From Symmachiella macrocystis (lineage in GTDB: Bacteria; Planctomycetota; Planctomycetia; Planctomycetales; Planctomycetaceae), in contig NZ_SJPP01000001.1 of assembly GCF_007860075.1 (NCBI RefSeq), forward strand, positions 186,001 to 250,000: DNA of 64,000 nt. The letters are read 5' to 3'. The position numbers were made by a program, and so were the translations under genes. Positions 2,451 through 58,112 of the stretch are shown here, piece by piece. The notes beneath the pieces are model-generated. The model made no database searches. It worked only from the letters and a program-made list of their open reading frames with translations, and was not told the origin of the DNA. Numbering within the stretch: the stretch's first letter is position 1; each line of letters opens with the position of its first letter.

Positions 2451-3686
2451 TTAATTCCGTGACCGCATTTCCAAAAACTTCTTCAATGCCAACACGCCCA
2501 AGATCACCGCCGCCGTGCTGCCGCCGATCATCAGTTTGTAATCGCTCGACAACACCGCTGTGATCACGCCTCCCAGCAGCGAGAGGATGAAGATATTCAC
2601 GACGCCTAATCCGCCGGGAAAGAATTGTTTCTTTAAGGCTCCTGCGTTGCGCAATTCGTTAAACGCGACCGCCAACACGACCAATGCACCGACAATCAAA
2701 CCTTGGAACTCATCGGGATTCGTCTTCACGGTCTTCGCCACGGAGTCAATCACCACCCGCAAAAACAGAGCACCGAGCATGACACCCGGGATTGTTCCGA
2801 TGCCGCCGGCCAGCGAACAACCTCCCACCACGGCCGCGGCAATCGCGTTCAACTCATAGCCCATTCCCTGCGTCGCTGGGTTCGACATGCCGACGTAACT
2901 GCTGTACAAAATCCCCGCGATCGCAGCGGTCACCGTCCCCACGCAATAGGCCAACCACTTCAAGCGATCGGTACGGATCCCGCTCAACTTGGCCGCCTCT
3001 TCATTCCCGCCCAGAGCATACAAATGCCGACCGATGACCGTTTTGCTCATCAAGATCCATATCAATCCGCTCAGCACCAGAAATATCACCAGCGGAATCC
3101 ACCAGCGGCTTCCCCAACTGCGGAACGATGCATCGTTGACATAGATTTGCGTATTGCGGCCTTGCGTCGTAACAGCGGCTGTCACGTCTTGTACCAACAC
3201 CCGCGCCAATGACCGCAAACCGACCAGCGAAGCCAATGTTGCAATGAATGGCGGCAGCCCGATCACCGTAATCAACCACGCATGAAAACTGCCGATCAAT
3301 ACCGCCACCAACAGCGTTCCCGCAACGGCCGCGCATAAAATCCCCGCACCCAGTTCTCGCGTCTGCAGATTGCCGGCATCGTCGACCGGCGCCAGGGCAA
3401 TCATAATCGACGTGCAGATCGCCCCGCTGAAGGCGATCACCGAGCCGCTGGAAAGGTCAATTCCCCCCGCAATGATCACCGTGGCAGCGCCTAATGCAAA
3501 GATCCCCAGCAGCGATGCTTGCCGCAAGATCTCCGCCGCATTCTGGCTGGGCTTTTGCCTGTAGGAGTCATCCATGCCGGCAGTGATCCCGACGACCACC
3601 AATATGGCGAACAGCAACCCCAGCTCATTCCCGTACCGCTGCAACCAGCGCGCGAGATTGCCGGGATTCGAATCATTGCGGGACAT
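2451..3686 (-). CDS. Sugar ABC importer permease (RbsC type)
   Basis: This 411-residue polytopic membrane protein of the BPD_transp_2 family has repeated hydrophobic segments and the typical core GGIDLSSGSVIAFSGAI near residues 75-90. A second conserved block, ALGGNEEAAKLSGIRTDRLKW, is the coupling-helix region that contacts the ATPase. It is longer than RbsC of E. coli (about 320 residues); the extra length is in the N-terminal lead and in a C-terminal pair of hydrophobic segments after residue 350. ATG at 3686, 55 bp after the binding-protein stop. It is the membrane channel of the importer encoded here. Confidence 0.92.
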   Translation of the reverse strand: MSRNDSNPGNLARWLQRYGNELGLLFAILVVVGITAGMDDSYRQKPSQNAAEILRQASLLGIFALGAATVIIAGGIDLSSGSVIAFSGAICTSIMIALAPVDDAGNLQTRELGAGILCAAVAGTLLVAVLIGSFHAWLITVIGLPPFIATLASLVGLRSLARVLVQDVTAAVTTQGRNTQIYVNDASFRSWGSRWWIPLVIFLVLSGLIWILMSKTVIGRHLYALGGNEEAAKLSGIRTDRLKWLAYCVGTVTAAIAGILYSSYVGMSNPATQGMGYELNAIAAAVVGGCSLAGGIGTIPGVMLGALFLRVVIDSVAKTVKTNPDEFQGLIVGALVVLAVAFNELRNAGALKKQFFPGGLGVVNIFILSLLGGVITAVLSSDYKLMIGGSTAAVILGVLALKKFLEMRSRN

Positions 3687-3740
3687 GAAAACGCTTCTGT
3701 GAGAGATGATCGACGGGACGAGTGACTACGCGCCGTTGGA

Positions 3741-4823
3741 CTATGAACCGCTCAACCCATGCTCACGCAACCAGGCGCGGAATTCACTCAGCGTGAGGAA
3801 TTCGGTTTGGGGGTCGAACATATCGCGCTTCAGCGACGTCGTCCCATCCGGCACAACAACCTTCAATCCCGTGCGACACAAATCGCCTCCTTCGCTCCCC
3901 TGATCTGGGAGAAGTTCCGCGACCGTCGCCTGATCCTCCTCAACCATCGCTTTGAGCAATTGGACTCCTTGATAACCCATCTGATACGGATTTTGCACGA
4001 CCATCACATCCACCATGCCATCGGCCATGGCTTCAATCGCCGGTGGCTCCGCATCGAAACCGACGATTTTGACTTTGTTGCGGATTCCCAGCTCCTTCAC
4101 GATATCGACAATCGCCGGTGTGTTGTAGGACCAGATACCGACCAACAAATTCAAATTCGGATTGCGGTCCAGCGCATCACGCACGTTCTTCCGCGCGGGG
4201 TCAGCCTTACCGCCGTCTCCCATATTTTCTTTGGCGTTAATTTTCGCCCCCACCCCTTCGGCAAACCCACCGATGCGTTCGATCGCATTGGTCGCCCCTT
4301 TGAGGCCTACAAATGTCGCATACTCGCCCCCGTCGGGTAACAGTGCCTGGGCGGCCACTCCCAATTCGCGGCCCCCCTGTATATTGTCGGTTCCCAAATA
4401 AGCAAAGCGTGCATCGCGGGCGGTATCGCGATCGACGTCGGAATCGATCGTAACCACTTTAATGCCGCTTTCGCGCAGGTGGCGCAATTCATCCGCGATC
4501 GCTGCATTTTTGGCATCAGTCACGGAAATTCCCACCGCCGCCACGTCGGTCGAATTTGCGTACTGTTTGAGTTTGTTGATCTGCCCTTCGACTTCGTAGT
4601 CGTTGCGATCGACCATTACGGTCAGGCCCGCCTCCTCAACCTTCAGTTCCGCTGCCGCATCGCGGGCCCCCGTAGCGGCCGCATCCCAGTAGGGGGAGTT
4701 GCCGTTCGTTAATATGATAATCCGTTTGGCCACCGGTTCGGGCACTTCAGCGGAACCACACCCGCTAGTGCTGACCGCCAAACCAAGCAACAGACAACCG
4801 GCAATCATCGAACGAATACGCAT
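3741..4823 (-). CDS. Sugar-binding lipoprotein of the ABC importer (Peripla_BP_4, RbsB type)
   Basis: A 360-residue exported binding protein. A lipoprotein-type signal peptide ends at STSGC (Cys22), so the mature protein is probably membrane anchored. The next residues, RIIILTNGNSPYWDAAATGARDAA, match the first strand and helix of the RbsB/LacI-type binding fold. Later segments such as AVGISVTDAKNAA, VVTIDSDVD and VGFDAEPPAIEAMADG follow the family order. Being first in the operon fits the usual higher expression of the binding protein. The upstream GAGG is 11 bases from the ATG, so it is only a loose ribosome-binding site. The ligand is unknown. Confidence 0.92.
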   Translation of the reverse strand: MRIRSMIAGCLLLGLAVSTSGCGSAEVPEPVAKRIIILTNGNSPYWDAAATGARDAAAELKVEEAGLTVMVDRNDYEVEGQINKLKQYANSTDVAAVGISVTDAKNAAIADELRHLRESGIKVVTIDSDVDRDTARDARFAYLGTDNIQGGRELGVAAQALLPDGGEYATFVGLKGATNAIERIGGFAEGVGAKINAKENMGDGGKADPARKNVRDALDRNPNLNLLVGIWSYNTPAIVDIVKELGIRNKVKIVGFDAEPPAIEAMADGMVDVMVVQNPYQMGYQGVQLLKAMVEEDQATVAELLPDQGSEGGDLCRTGLKVVVPDGTTSLKRDMFDPQTEFLTLSEFRAWLREHGLSGS

Positions 4824-52822: not shown

Positions 52823-54247
52823 ATGAGTTCACCCCACAACGGGATCAATACGCCGCTCTCCAGACGCTCATTCCTGGTCGCCTCCGGCATGGGTTTGGCG
52901 GGAACGGCCCGGGGAACGACCGCACCAGCCGCGGCGGCAAATGTGCCGCAAGGCCGCAAGCTCGCCAAATCGACGATCCTGTTTTTCCTCTGTGGCGGAT
53001 CCTCGCACATCGACATGTGGGATCTGAAACCGAAAGCCCCGATCGAATATCGCGGCCCCTTTGCCCCGATCGCCACCACTGCTCCCGGCATTGAACTGAG
53101 CGAACACCTGCCGCTGCTCGCGCAACAAGCGCACCATTTGAACATCGTCCGATCGGTCGGCGCCACCGTGAACACCAACGACCACCACGGCGGGTACTAC
53201 CACAATCTCACCGGACATGCGCCGGACATCACGTTCGTGACATTGGGAAATAACCGCACACCGGTTGCAGACGATTGGCCGTTTATGGGTTCGGTCGTCG
53301 CCGCCAAAAAACCGGCCCGCCCGCAACTTCCCAGCGCGATCACCCTGCCCCATAAACCGAGTCGAGCGCCCTATACCCGGCCGGGACAATTCGCCGCACG
53401 GATTGGTCCTGAATTCGATCCGCTCTACATCAACGGCAGCCATAAAAATCCACTTGAGTTCCACGCCCCGTCACTGGTCCTAGAAGGGGATGTCTCTCCC
53501 GAGCGGCTGACCAACCGCCGCGAATTACTCAGCACTGTGGATGCTGCCCGCCGCGATTTCGAAACAAACGCCTCCCCCAAAACTTGGAGCAACCAACAAA
53601 AACGAGCCGTCAATCTACTGCTCTCCTCCAGCACCACCGAGGCGTTCAACGTCGCCGCGGAACCGGCCGCCCTGCGGGAGCGATATGGTGAAACCATCAA
53701 TGGCATGAGCCTGCTGTTGGCGCGGCGACTGGTCGAAGCCGAAGTGCCGTTCATTACGGTCTTCTGGAAAGGGGACACGGCGCTGAATAAAAAATGCAAA
53801 AGCGCCGGCAGTTGGGACACACACGGCAACAACTTCAACTGCTTGAAAGAGAACCTACTTCCGGAATTTGATCGCGGATTTTCAGCACTGATCGAAGATC
53901 TGTCCGACCGCGGACTCTTGGACGAAACACTGCTGCTGGTCAGCAGCGAAATGGGCCGCACCCCCAAAATCGGCGACCGTCGTTCCGGCGGCGTCGCCGG
54001 CGCCGGTCGTGATCACTGGACGCATTGCCTAAGTAACGTCTTCGCCGGCGGTGGCATGTCGGGCGGACAAGTCTACGGCGCCACCGACCGCTTCGCCCAA
54101 TTCCCCGCCGACCGCCCCGTAACCCCCGCCCACATTGCCAAAACGGTCTACCACGCCATGGGTGTCGACGACATCGAATTCCAAGACCGCGAAGGCCGCC
54201 CCTACAACGCACTCCCCGACGGCTATCCGCTGACCGAATTGTTTTAG
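52823..54247 (+). CDS. DUF1501 secreted protein
   Basis: 474 residues with the leader SRRSFLVASGMGLAGTARGTTAPAAAA (twin arginine). Core blocks: TILFFLCGGSSHIDMWDLKPKAPIEYRGPFAPIATTAPG, LNIVRSVGATVNTNDHHGGYYHNLTGHAP, VPFITVFWKGDTALNKKCKSAGSWDTHGNNFNCLKEN and LLLVSSEMGRTPKIG, followed by GRDHWTHCLSNVFAGGGMSGGQVYG. The DTHGNNF part has an inserted K-x-KCKSAG stretch not seen in the other copies here. Strand-mates are the HTTM gene upstream (154 bp) and the TTAGCCAC element downstream, which starts 13 bp after the stop. Confidence 0.92.
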   Translation: MSSPHNGINTPLSRRSFLVASGMGLAGTARGTTAPAAAANVPQGRKLAKSTILFFLCGGSSHIDMWDLKPKAPIEYRGPFAPIATTAPGIELSEHLPLLAQQAHHLNIVRSVGATVNTNDHHGGYYHNLTGHAPDITFVTLGNNRTPVADDWPFMGSVVAAKKPARPQLPSAITLPHKPSRAPYTRPGQFAARIGPEFDPLYINGSHKNPLEFHAPSLVLEGDVSPERLTNRRELLSTVDAARRDFETNASPKTWSNQQKRAVNLLLSSSTTEAFNVAAEPAALRERYGETINGMSLLLARRLVEAEVPFITVFWKGDTALNKKCKSAGSWDTHGNNFNCLKENLLPEFDRGFSALIEDLSDRGLLDETLLLVSSEMGRTPKIGDRRSGGVAGAGRDHWTHCLSNVFAGGGMSGGQVYGATDRFAQFPADRPVTPAHIAKTVYHAMGVDDIEFQDREGRPYNALPDGYPLTELF

Positions 54248-54301
54248 TTGCACAGTTATATTAGCCACGGATTAACACGGATGAAACACGGATAAGTAAA
54301 A

Positions 54302-54326
54302 GTAGGTCATGCTGTGCATGACCTAC
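54302..54326. repeat. Perfect hairpin GTAGGTCATGC-TGT-GCATGACCTAC
   Basis: An 11-bp perfect stem with a 3-base loop, 8 bp before the cargo-gene ATG and 6 bp after the left inverted repeat. Its design, GTAGG...CCTAC, resembles the GTAGGGTGCGT-CG-ACGCACC palindromes at 2333 and 6088. Confidence 0.7.
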
Positions 54327-54333
54327 GACTGAC

Positions 54334-54660
54334 ATGCCAAAAGCAACGTCCATATGTCCGGGGGCGCCAATGTGTTGTAAACACACATTAATACGTTCTT
54401 CTGTGATCGGTATTGCTGTGCTGGGGATGATATTTGGGATTGGGATATGGAATTTCAACCAACCACCACACGCATATTATGCTGTTCAGAATCTCTCTCT
54501 CCATGCAACGAAGGATGAGACGATCCGCATGCTTGGGTCCCCAGGAAGTGTTCAACAGAATGGAAGAGTCTTGGTATACACCAGGCTCCTGTCGTGGGGC
54601 ATCTTGTATGTGAACCTTGATGGAGAGAGCAGGTATCTCAGCTATACCTATGACAAATGA
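54334..54660 (+). CDS. Small membrane-anchored protein with BamE/SmpA-like domain, cargo of the inverted-repeat element
   Basis: 108 residues, or 97 from a second ATG at 54370 (MCCKHTLIRSS), which puts the hydrophobic segment VIGIAVLGMIFGIGIW near the N-terminus and may be the true start. The rest, AVQNLSLHATKDETIRMLGSPGSVQQNGRVLVYTRLLSWGILYVNLDGESRYLSYTYD, resembles SmpA/BamE-like folds (a helix with T-x-x-E-x-x-x-x-L-G-x-P, then strands and a D-G turn). Base composition is visibly more AT-rich than in flanking genes. It is the only gene between the 35-bp inverted repeats. Function unknown; coding status is fairly likely. Confidence 0.6.
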   Translation: MPKATSICPGAPMCCKHTLIRSSVIGIAVLGMIFGIGIWNFNQPPHAYYAVQNLSLHATKDETIRMLGSPGSVQQNGRVLVYTRLLSWGILYVNLDGESRYLSYTYDK

Positions 54661-54774
54661 AAGACGGCTAGAACGCCGGGAGCAGGACGTAATGTCTTAT
54701 TTTTTATCCGTGTCTCATCCGTGTTAATCCGTGGCTAAAAATCCTTCCCTCCCATCAAACCGGAGACCCACCCC

Positions 54775-56070
54775 ATGAATCCTCTCCATGACAATATCTC
54801 CCGCCGTGGCTTTCTCGCCGGTTCATTGGCTGCCGGAACGGGTTTGGCGTTTTCGCCCTGGTCGTTGCAGGCGGACGAGACGAAGCCTAAGAAAAAGCTG
54901 GCTGTCATCACCACCGAATGGCGGTTTCACTCCCATGCCTGGCACATGGCGGAGCGGTTTCTGACCGGTTATCCGATCAATGGCAAATGGCATCACCCGC
55001 CGTTTGACGTCGTGACCGCTTACGTCGATCAATTCCCCGACAACGACCTCAGCCGCGGCCGCGCTAAAGAGTTCGGTTTCAAAATCACCCCCACCATTGC
55101 CGAAGCGCTGCGCAACGGCAAAGACAAACTCGACATCGATGCTGTGCTGATCATCGGCGAACATGGCAAGTACGACAAAAGCGACGTCGGCCAGACAAAA
55201 TATCCCCGCTACGAGTTCTTCAAAGCGGTCACCGATGTCTTTGCCGAAGACGGAAAAGTCCTCCCCATTTTCAACGACAAGCACCTGTCGTGGAACTGGG
55301 ATTGGGCCAAAGAGATGGTCGACATTTCGCGCGAACAAAAAATCCCATTCCTCGCTGGTTCCTCGTTGCCGGTCACATGGCGGATGCCCTCGATCGACAT
55401 GCCGTACGGCGCCGAGGTCGAGGAGATCATGTCGGTCGCCATCGGCGGTACGGACAGCTACGACTTTCACGCACTAGAAGTCATGCAGTGCATGGCCGAG
55501 CGCCGCAAGGGAGGCGAAACCGGTGTGGTTTCCATGCAGGCTCTTCGCGGCGACGATGTCTGGGAAGCGATGGACTCCGGTCCTTGGAAAGCGGGCGGCT
55601 GGGACCCTCAACTTTTCAAAGCCTGCCTGACCCGCACGCAAACCTTAGCCCAACCCGAGACCTACAGTCATCGCTACCCCACCACTGCTCAGATCCGGGA
55701 ATGGGTCAAAAAGCCGATCGCCTACCGTTTCGAATACGCCGATGGCCTGAAAGGCACGATGCTACTCATGAACGGCTTGGTGAATGACTTCACGTTTGCC
55801 GCCAAGTTAAAGGGCCAAAAAAATCCGCTCTCAACGCTGTTCTACCTGCCCCCCAACCCCAACGTGGTCTACTCCGCCGCCCTGATGTCCAACGCCGAAA
55901 AGACCTTCCTCACCGGCAAGCCCCCCTACCCCGTCGAACGCACATTACTCACCGGCGGCCTCGTCGAAGCGGGCATGAAATCGCTAGCGCAAGACAGCAA
56001 GAAGCTGGAGACGCCGCACCTAGCAGTCGAGTACCAGGTGCCGGACAAAACGTTGTTCTGGGTGAGTTGA
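54775..56070 (+). CDS. Tat-exported protein, function unknown
   Basis: 431 residues. Leader SRRGFLAGSLAAGTGLAFSPWSLQADE, with a twin-arginine motif. The mature part begins LAVITTEWRFHSHAWHMAERFLTGYPINGKWHHPPFDVVTAYVDQFPDNDLSRGRAKEFGF; later come VLIIGEHGKYDKSDVGQTKYPRYEFFKAVTDVF and HLSWNWDWAKEMVD. The opening strand and the AVLIIGEHG block suggest a nucleotide- or sugar-binding alpha/beta fold, but I do not recognise the family. It begins 36 bp after the inverted-repeat element, so its promoter may lie inside that element. Confidence 0.75.
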   Translation: MNPLHDNISRRGFLAGSLAAGTGLAFSPWSLQADETKPKKKLAVITTEWRFHSHAWHMAERFLTGYPINGKWHHPPFDVVTAYVDQFPDNDLSRGRAKEFGFKITPTIAEALRNGKDKLDIDAVLIIGEHGKYDKSDVGQTKYPRYEFFKAVTDVFAEDGKVLPIFNDKHLSWNWDWAKEMVDISREQKIPFLAGSSLPVTWRMPSIDMPYGAEVEEIMSVAIGGTDSYDFHALEVMQCMAERRKGGETGVVSMQALRGDDVWEAMDSGPWKAGGWDPQLFKACLTRTQTLAQPETYSHRYPTTAQIREWVKKPIAYRFEYADGLKGTMLLMNGLVNDFTFAAKLKGQKNPLSTLFYLPPNPNVVYSAALMSNAEKTFLTGKPPYPVERTLLTGGLVEAGMKSLAQDSKKLETPHLAVEYQVPDKTLFWVS

Positions 56071-56520
56071 AGGGAATTCAATAGCAGCCACAGAGGTCTC
56101 AGAGGACACAGAGAACTTAGCGAGACGGAGCCGCAACACAGCGTGTCCGTTTTTCTTAGCCACAGATTGAACACAGATAAAACACAGATCTCCGGCGTGA
56201 CTCCCCAAAATCCCAAACCGACCGCTTGCGGTCGCATTGTGCGCCCGAACTGCGCACAAGCTGTGAACGCTCGCAGTACAGAGAGGACTTTGTAAGAAAT
56301 CCTCTGTGAACTCTGTGTTCTCTGTGGCTAATTCCAATATGCCTAGACCGTGGGGAACTCGAAAACCGTCTGCGTTTGTGCATGCATGAGTTTTCAAGGA
56401 CCGGCAGTCCAATAGCGATCGATGCCGAACTTGGGTGCAATCCTCAAGAATACATAGACAAAACCGACACTCTTTCGGATCATATCAGCGAACACCTCCA
56501 TTCGTGAAAGGTCTGCTGGC
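56071..56520. other. Intergenic region rich in CACAGA repeats, 450 bp
   Basis: It contains a CAGCCACAGAGGTCTCAGAGG stretch (56084-56105) and the 176-bp TTAGCCACAGA element at 56156-56331. No gene. Confidence 0.6.
56156..56331. repeat. TTAGCCACAGA...TCTGTGGCTAA element, copy A
   Basis: Perfect 11-bp terminal inverted repeats. The interior aligns over its whole length with copy B at 59739-59906, including ACCGACC.CT.GCG.TCGCA.TGTGCG and GTAAGAAA.CCTCTGTGAACTCTGTG, with substitutions, and a 9-bp insertion, near the right end. It lies upstream of the first tandem paralog. Confidence 0.75.
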
Positions 56521-58028: not shown

Positions 58029-58112
58029 CTCACGCAAAGCCGCCAAGTCCGCGAAGGTTTTCGAGGGACGCCGCCGTGTTATTCCTTGGCGAGCTTTGCG
58101 GCTTTGTGTGAG
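58029..58112. repeat. Inverted-repeat hairpin between tandem paralogs
   Basis: CTCACGCAAAGCCGCCAAG (58029-58047) is matched in inverse by CTTGGCGAGCTTTGCGGCTTTGTGTGAG (58085-58112) with small bulges. The left arm also appears, truncated, after the second paralog (59678-59690), so the 3' flank was duplicated with the gene. It may act as a terminator. Confidence 0.6.

Follow-up and report, generated by a model that had tools for sequence, protein, structure and literature searches.

REPINs are doublets of REP sequences that form hairpins and are mobilised by REP-associated tyrosine transposases, or RAYTs (PMC3116915), and a GTAG-tagged class of REP has been described in planctomycetes (PMC3733652). 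The intervening sequence (IVS) of Coxiella is 428 nt long; its ends pair as a stem of 28 bp, its 5′ region contains three heptamers in tandem, and it carries a single small open reading frame (ORF; PMC4990558). Here we describe an element of 478 bp, from outer end to outer end, in the planctomycete Symmachiella macrocystis. It lies in a stretch of 64,000 nucleotides, analysed as a whole and referred to as the window, and the repeat family of its arms is associated with the small nuclease GxxExxY.

An element bounded by inverted iterated arms

The two arms of the element (Table 1) are 35 nt each, lie 408 nt apart and are 97% complementary, with one mismatch. Each holds three CACGGAT-like units at a spacing of 10–11 bp, as an earlier note on this DNA had described; the units of the left arm start at 54266, 54276 and 54287 and are mirrored on the opposite strand at 54706–54733. 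Three-unit arrays of the CACGGAT kind were found in none of 20 shuffles of the window, and folding of the element as single-stranded DNA gave a z score of −9.6, with strong pairing of the arms. A search of Rfam returned no match at the locus.

The arms enclose a single small gene that is richer in A+T than its surroundings, again in agreement with the note: a 108-aa ORF with a G+C content of 47% versus 56% for the window. The perfect hairpin reported right before the start of this gene is likewise present, in the form GTAGGTCATGC-TGT-GCATGACCTAC, 7 bp upstream of the ATG codon. This hairpin is a separate repeat of a known type, the GTAG-tagged REP, and no part of the arms; partial copies occur elsewhere in the genome and longer copies are inserted at the sister locus.

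Table 1. Features of the element and of its surroundings (window coordinates)
Feature	Position	Strand	Description
Upstream neighbour	52823..54247	+	DUF1501 protein
Left arm	54261..54295	+	TTAGC followed by three CACGGAT units (spacing 10 and 11); T-type
Hairpin	54302..54326	+	25 nt, perfect 11-bp stem, GTAGGTCATGCTGTGCATGACCTAC; GTAG-tagged, REP-like
108-aa ORF	54334..54660	+	Hydrophobic stretch at the N terminus; matches neither a Pfam nor an NCBIfam family
Right arm	54704..54738	-	Inverted copy of the left arm, 34 of 35 positions matched
Downstream neighbour	54775..56070	+	431-aa protein; weak (sub-cut-off) Tat-signal match
Second arm pair	56086..56328		G-type (CACAGAG units), gene-free
Single arm inside second pair	56161..56189		T-type (CACAGAT, three units)
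Tight inward arms	58033..58056, 58085..58108		CGCAAAG/CGCCAAG type, short loop, gene-free

The second arm pair of the window encloses, besides the single T-type arm, a hairpin of the GGTCGC type, and arms corresponding to this pair are visible also at the sister locus (L046).

The enclosed gene

Comparison of the 108-aa gene with its sister copy gave a Ka/Ks of 0.76 on few changes, and constraint on the gene is weak at most. No viral relatives were found, the ORF has no match to PF05635 (S23p/four-helix-bundle), and the single-sequence fold model (pLDDT 50) is uninterpretable. Of 298 genomes, no more than a few have convincing relatives of the protein. Those in G020, G089 and G170 stand without arms where both flanks are readable, and we rejected on these grounds the possibility that the gene is the usual cargo of the arms. 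Small genes do lie between comparable inverted arms at other loci. The lack of any link between the 108-aa gene and arms outside the genus was counted against the arm-family explanation developed below. The gene looks like an ordinary gene that was captured or enclosed. Because the ORF, which matches no NCBIfam or Pfam family, is not a GxxExxY (TIGR04256) gene, the element can be at most a derived member of the GxxExxY-arm family.

Arms in this and related genomes

Pattern and DNA searches were run across the whole genome (7.57 Mb), the counts of arms resting on the patterns. About 24 T-type arm sites were found on the main contig (4.7 Mb), and the genome is not poor in such arms. All five pairs of neighbouring arms less than 1 kb apart (142, 148, 157, 428 and 452 bp) are inverted and face inwards, where 0.12 close pairs would be expected at random. 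In the complete, arm-rich genome G071, the 100 arms listed include 27 close pairs (<1 kb), every one of them inverted, against 1.7 random close pairs expected; 11 face inwards and 16 outwards, nearly all are tight and none has both arms in the same orientation. Most arm pairs are gene-free.

The 8.4-Mb genome of G071 (contig C1; L333–L362, L174) carries 363 matches to the T-type arm with one mismatch allowed, many arms form tight outward-facing palindromes 29–49 bp apart, and there is one T-type GxxExxY gene (L174). At L353 and L396 of G071, inward arms enclose host genes that were identified by eye as encoding an FAD oxidoreductase and a GNAT acetyltransferase, and the open frames of these genes extend into arm sequence. 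That close arm pairs in arm-rich genomes may have host genes between them as well was counted against the arm-family explanation.

At least five T-type arms were present in 32 of 83 genomes with GxxExxY versus 4 of 37 without it (p = 0.002, relatedness being ignored). Three genomes, G022, G085 and G136, have abundant arms and no detected GxxExxY, which was also counted against the arm-family explanation.

Arms flank GxxExxY nuclease genes

The 428-bp pair of this genome encloses a GxxExxY gene (TIGR04256, PF13366); its neighbours, judged by eye from the flanks, are moaE on one side and moaA on the other. Three of the four GxxExxY genes in the genome lie between inverted arms at a score of at least 23, and the fourth reaches only 14, through a short 14-bp match. 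Each of the three armed genes has a pair built from a different unit: CACGGAT, CACGGAGG and CGCAAAGA. We then considered 166 GxxExxY genes with both flanks, 87 of them from same-family genomes plus one plasmid-free relative set and 79 from named genomes. Inverted iterated arms surrounded 136 of the 166 (82%; score at least 14), compared with 48 of 492 in a control that joined flanks from different loci; this control is inflated, and hence conservative, because unit types recur among loci. Flanks of a gene family unrelated to GxxExxY, taken from these genomes, gave 1 of 23. Among the named loci, which cover 17 phyla, one of them archaeal, 61 of 79 GxxExxY genes have arms, with a median element length of 488 bp. 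A typical full member measures about 490 bp and consists of arms of about three tandem short units around one gene, GxxExxY. The arm unit varies between loci yet is common to both arms within one locus. The window element has the same inverted arrangement of about three C[AG]CNNA[GTA] units with a period of 8–11, and its length falls within the family range of about 440–670 bp, outer to outer.

The type of unit follows the protein. When 130 GxxExxY proteins were placed on a tree, the last letter of the unit (G versus A/T) changed three times, whereas all 200 shuffles required at least 14 changes, and one clade has A/T-type units in 16 of 16 cases; such an association could arise from linked inheritance alone. 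G-type units recur every 8 bp, A-type units every 9 bp and T-type units, to which the window arms belong, every 10 bp. By its Pfam family and conserved residues (D, ExK, QxxxY), GxxExxY is a PD-(D/E)XK nuclease. Its AF2 model has a pLDDT of 95.6, and the best structural match (Z 9.6 over 96 residues) is SSO0001, a Cas4-family nuclease; PADLOC gave weak Cas4 matches, and no sequence relative was found in the PDB. A phage or plasmid origin of GxxExxY was rejected, since none of 50,697 phage records and only 8 of the 72,556 for plasmids had it, and the plasmids offered no clean empty site for junction mapping. Literature on GxxExxY is almost absent, amounting to two passing mentions among 5.39 million open-licence papers.

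Comparison of sister genomes

In the sister genome (G001) this locus again has both arms with the 108-aa gene enclosed, together with an IS630-like insert and extra hairpins. The insert separates the left arm from the gene; its transposase, assigned to the family by eye from the ORFs, runs over two frames (L146, about 3171–4331). Since gene and both arms are shared, recent movement of the window copy is unsupported, and we reject it for the interval between the two genomes. The earlier suggestion that the arms are maintained or recently moved is supported in its first part, as matched inverted pairs are kept here and in relatives, and unsupported for this copy in its second. Likewise, the proposal that they spread a small coding cassette is not supported for this copy: the sister has the same site, gene and arms, and relatives of the gene elsewhere are armless. 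Both arms are present at the sister locus, and no clean empty site was seen. The order of the DUF1501 and 431-aa genes was considered as a pre-insertion state and rejected, being conserved beyond the genus in only one or two distant cases.

Comparison of other loci shows that the content bounded by arms changes (the nuclease is present or lost, hairpins are inserted, the interior is inverted) while the arms persist. At the moa site the GxxExxY cassette is present in both sister genomes, with flanks about 94% identical and a cassette only 72% identical, and all units of both arms differ together between the sisters, mostly as CACGGAT versus CACAGAT. At L154/L145 the CACGGAG arms are kept in both genomes, one of which has the nuclease gene and the other hairpin repeats instead. 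At L037 (G000:C1:403567-403726), compared with the sister locus L079, the interior of a gene-free arm pair, roughly 100 bp, is inverted between collinear flanks. Two cassettes, in G001 at 2133714 and on contig 23 of G002, have no counterpart in relatives, which lack the arms as well; in both, the gene is placed between two palindromes each made of an arm plus an inverted arm. In such presence/absence cases the intergenic sequence has diverged on both sides, leaving no exact junctions. Neither intermediates of transposition nor target duplications nor exact empty junctions were observed, which was counted against the mobility model.

A model for the arm family

Taken together, the arms that flank GxxExxY genes suggest a small DNA element of a kind that has been overlooked and may be mobile. 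We lean towards regarding the stretch in the window as a non-autonomous or derived member of this iterated-arm family, in which a gene has become enclosed by chance or by capture; mobilisation within the family would be mediated by GxxExxY. The earlier view of a cassette without its own enzyme is right for the window copy, which has none, but not for the family, whose associated nuclease usually lies between such arms. GxxExxY may recognise the iterated arms, probably when these are paired as a hairpin or cruciform; once it has cleaved them, the repair machinery would copy the segment between the arms, move it or flip it, and pairs that are gene-free or carry foreign cargo would have been mobilised in trans or be leftovers after loss of the nuclease gene. 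The window copy looks old and now static: its arms were in place before the split from the sister species, and an in-frame stop (TGA) interrupts the one T-type GxxExxY gene that this genome has; the sister copy of that gene is open.

A different account, which we consider unlikely, would make the arms ordinary dispersed intergenic repeats that the host copies through replication slippage or template switching and that are paired and flipped by host recombination, with GxxExxY genes as passengers of hot intergenic spots. Other hairpin repeats do nest at the same places, a few genomes have arms without GxxExxY, and host enzymes can produce an in-locus flip; a passive origin sits poorly, however, with the flanking of GxxExxY in 82% of cases against 1 of 23 for an unrelated gene, and with unit types that track the protein tree. 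It is improbable that the 108-aa gene was simply resident and that arms were inserted or accumulated around it, the pair being meaningless as a unit. Armless relatives of the gene and the arms around the GNAT and oxidoreductase genes of G071 speak for such enclosure, but about 24 sites on 4.7 Mb gave five close inverted pairs in this genome rather than 0.12, and the length of 478 bp and the matching of 34 of 35 positions are typical of the cassette form.

We also give little credence to an IVS-like RNA element, in which the arms would form a long transcript stem cut by RNase III, as in 23S rRNA IVSs, and the enclosed gene would be incidental. The architecture and size match those of the Coxiella IVS (PMC4990558), the element lies between two co-oriented genes, and the arms around genes of the IVS protein family (four-helix-bundle) in the genomes examined here keep strictly to a 7-bp period. 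RNA pairing would favour G.T over A.C among arm mismatches; on the gene-sense strand we counted 147 G.T and 158 A.C. Since A.C mismatches are as frequent as G.T, the match between arms is not visibly kept by pairing in a sense transcript, and with no G.U bias and no Rfam match, RNA-level pairing of the arms was rejected. The location outside rRNA genes also speaks against an IVS-like element.

More tentatively, we raise the possibility, short of an expectation, that GxxExxY is the mobilising enzyme of an undescribed and very widespread class of minimal transposable element. Such an element would consist of a Cas4-like PD-(D/E)XK gene and inverted tandem-unit arms that co-vary with the enzyme in both sequence and period; gene-free and foreign-cargo pairs, including the window locus, would be moved in trans, and four-helix-bundle genes would form a parallel class with a 7-bp period. 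The link to arms gives GxxExxY, a common family, a specific and testable DNA substrate and hence a function to test, and would explain a repeat family across many bacterial phyla. Arm pairs would also offer small genes a simple route to movable ends, and the shared architecture may connect GxxExxY elements to the long-unexplained rRNA intervening sequences.

Comparison with known systems

The window element is a member of neither the REPIN/RAYT system nor the 23S rRNA IVSs. It resembles REPIN/RAYT in behaviour, with extragenic inverted doublets, many gene-free copies and few nuclease genes flanked by the same sequence. However, the arms here consist of three iterated 8–10 bp units instead of a single GTAG-tagged palindrome, the spans are 60–650 bp, and the associated protein is a Cas4-like PD-(D/E)XK nuclease, not an HUH Y1 transposase. 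As the window arms have no GTAG REP at the doublet ends and the enzyme linked to the arms folds differently, the family does not belong to REPIN/RAYT; the hairpin of the GTAG-tagged REP kind (PMC3733652) is an insert inside the element.

Compared with MITEs, the element is similarly short, with terminal inverted repeats and no transposase, but no target duplication turned up, no known transposase is encoded by the coding element related to it, and the arms vary between loci while matching within a locus. The closest likeness in architecture is to 23S rRNA IVSs, with a length of about 430–490 bp, imperfect terminal inverted repeats of 28–35 bp made of tandem short units, and one small ORF. The window element differs in lying between the DUF1501 and 431-aa genes and not in rRNA, in the protein family involved, in the period of its units (that of four-helix-bundle arms is 7 bp), and in arms that bear no RNA-pairing signature. 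In planctomycetes, four-helix-bundle (PF05635) genes (L075, L076, L363–L391) have inverted arms with a unit private to each locus, and 46 of 48 of these arms show the 7-bp period. These cassettes are a parallel family outside rRNA genes, and their presence in the same planctomycete genomes, between inverted arms of 7-bp period, supports the parallel with IVS architecture.
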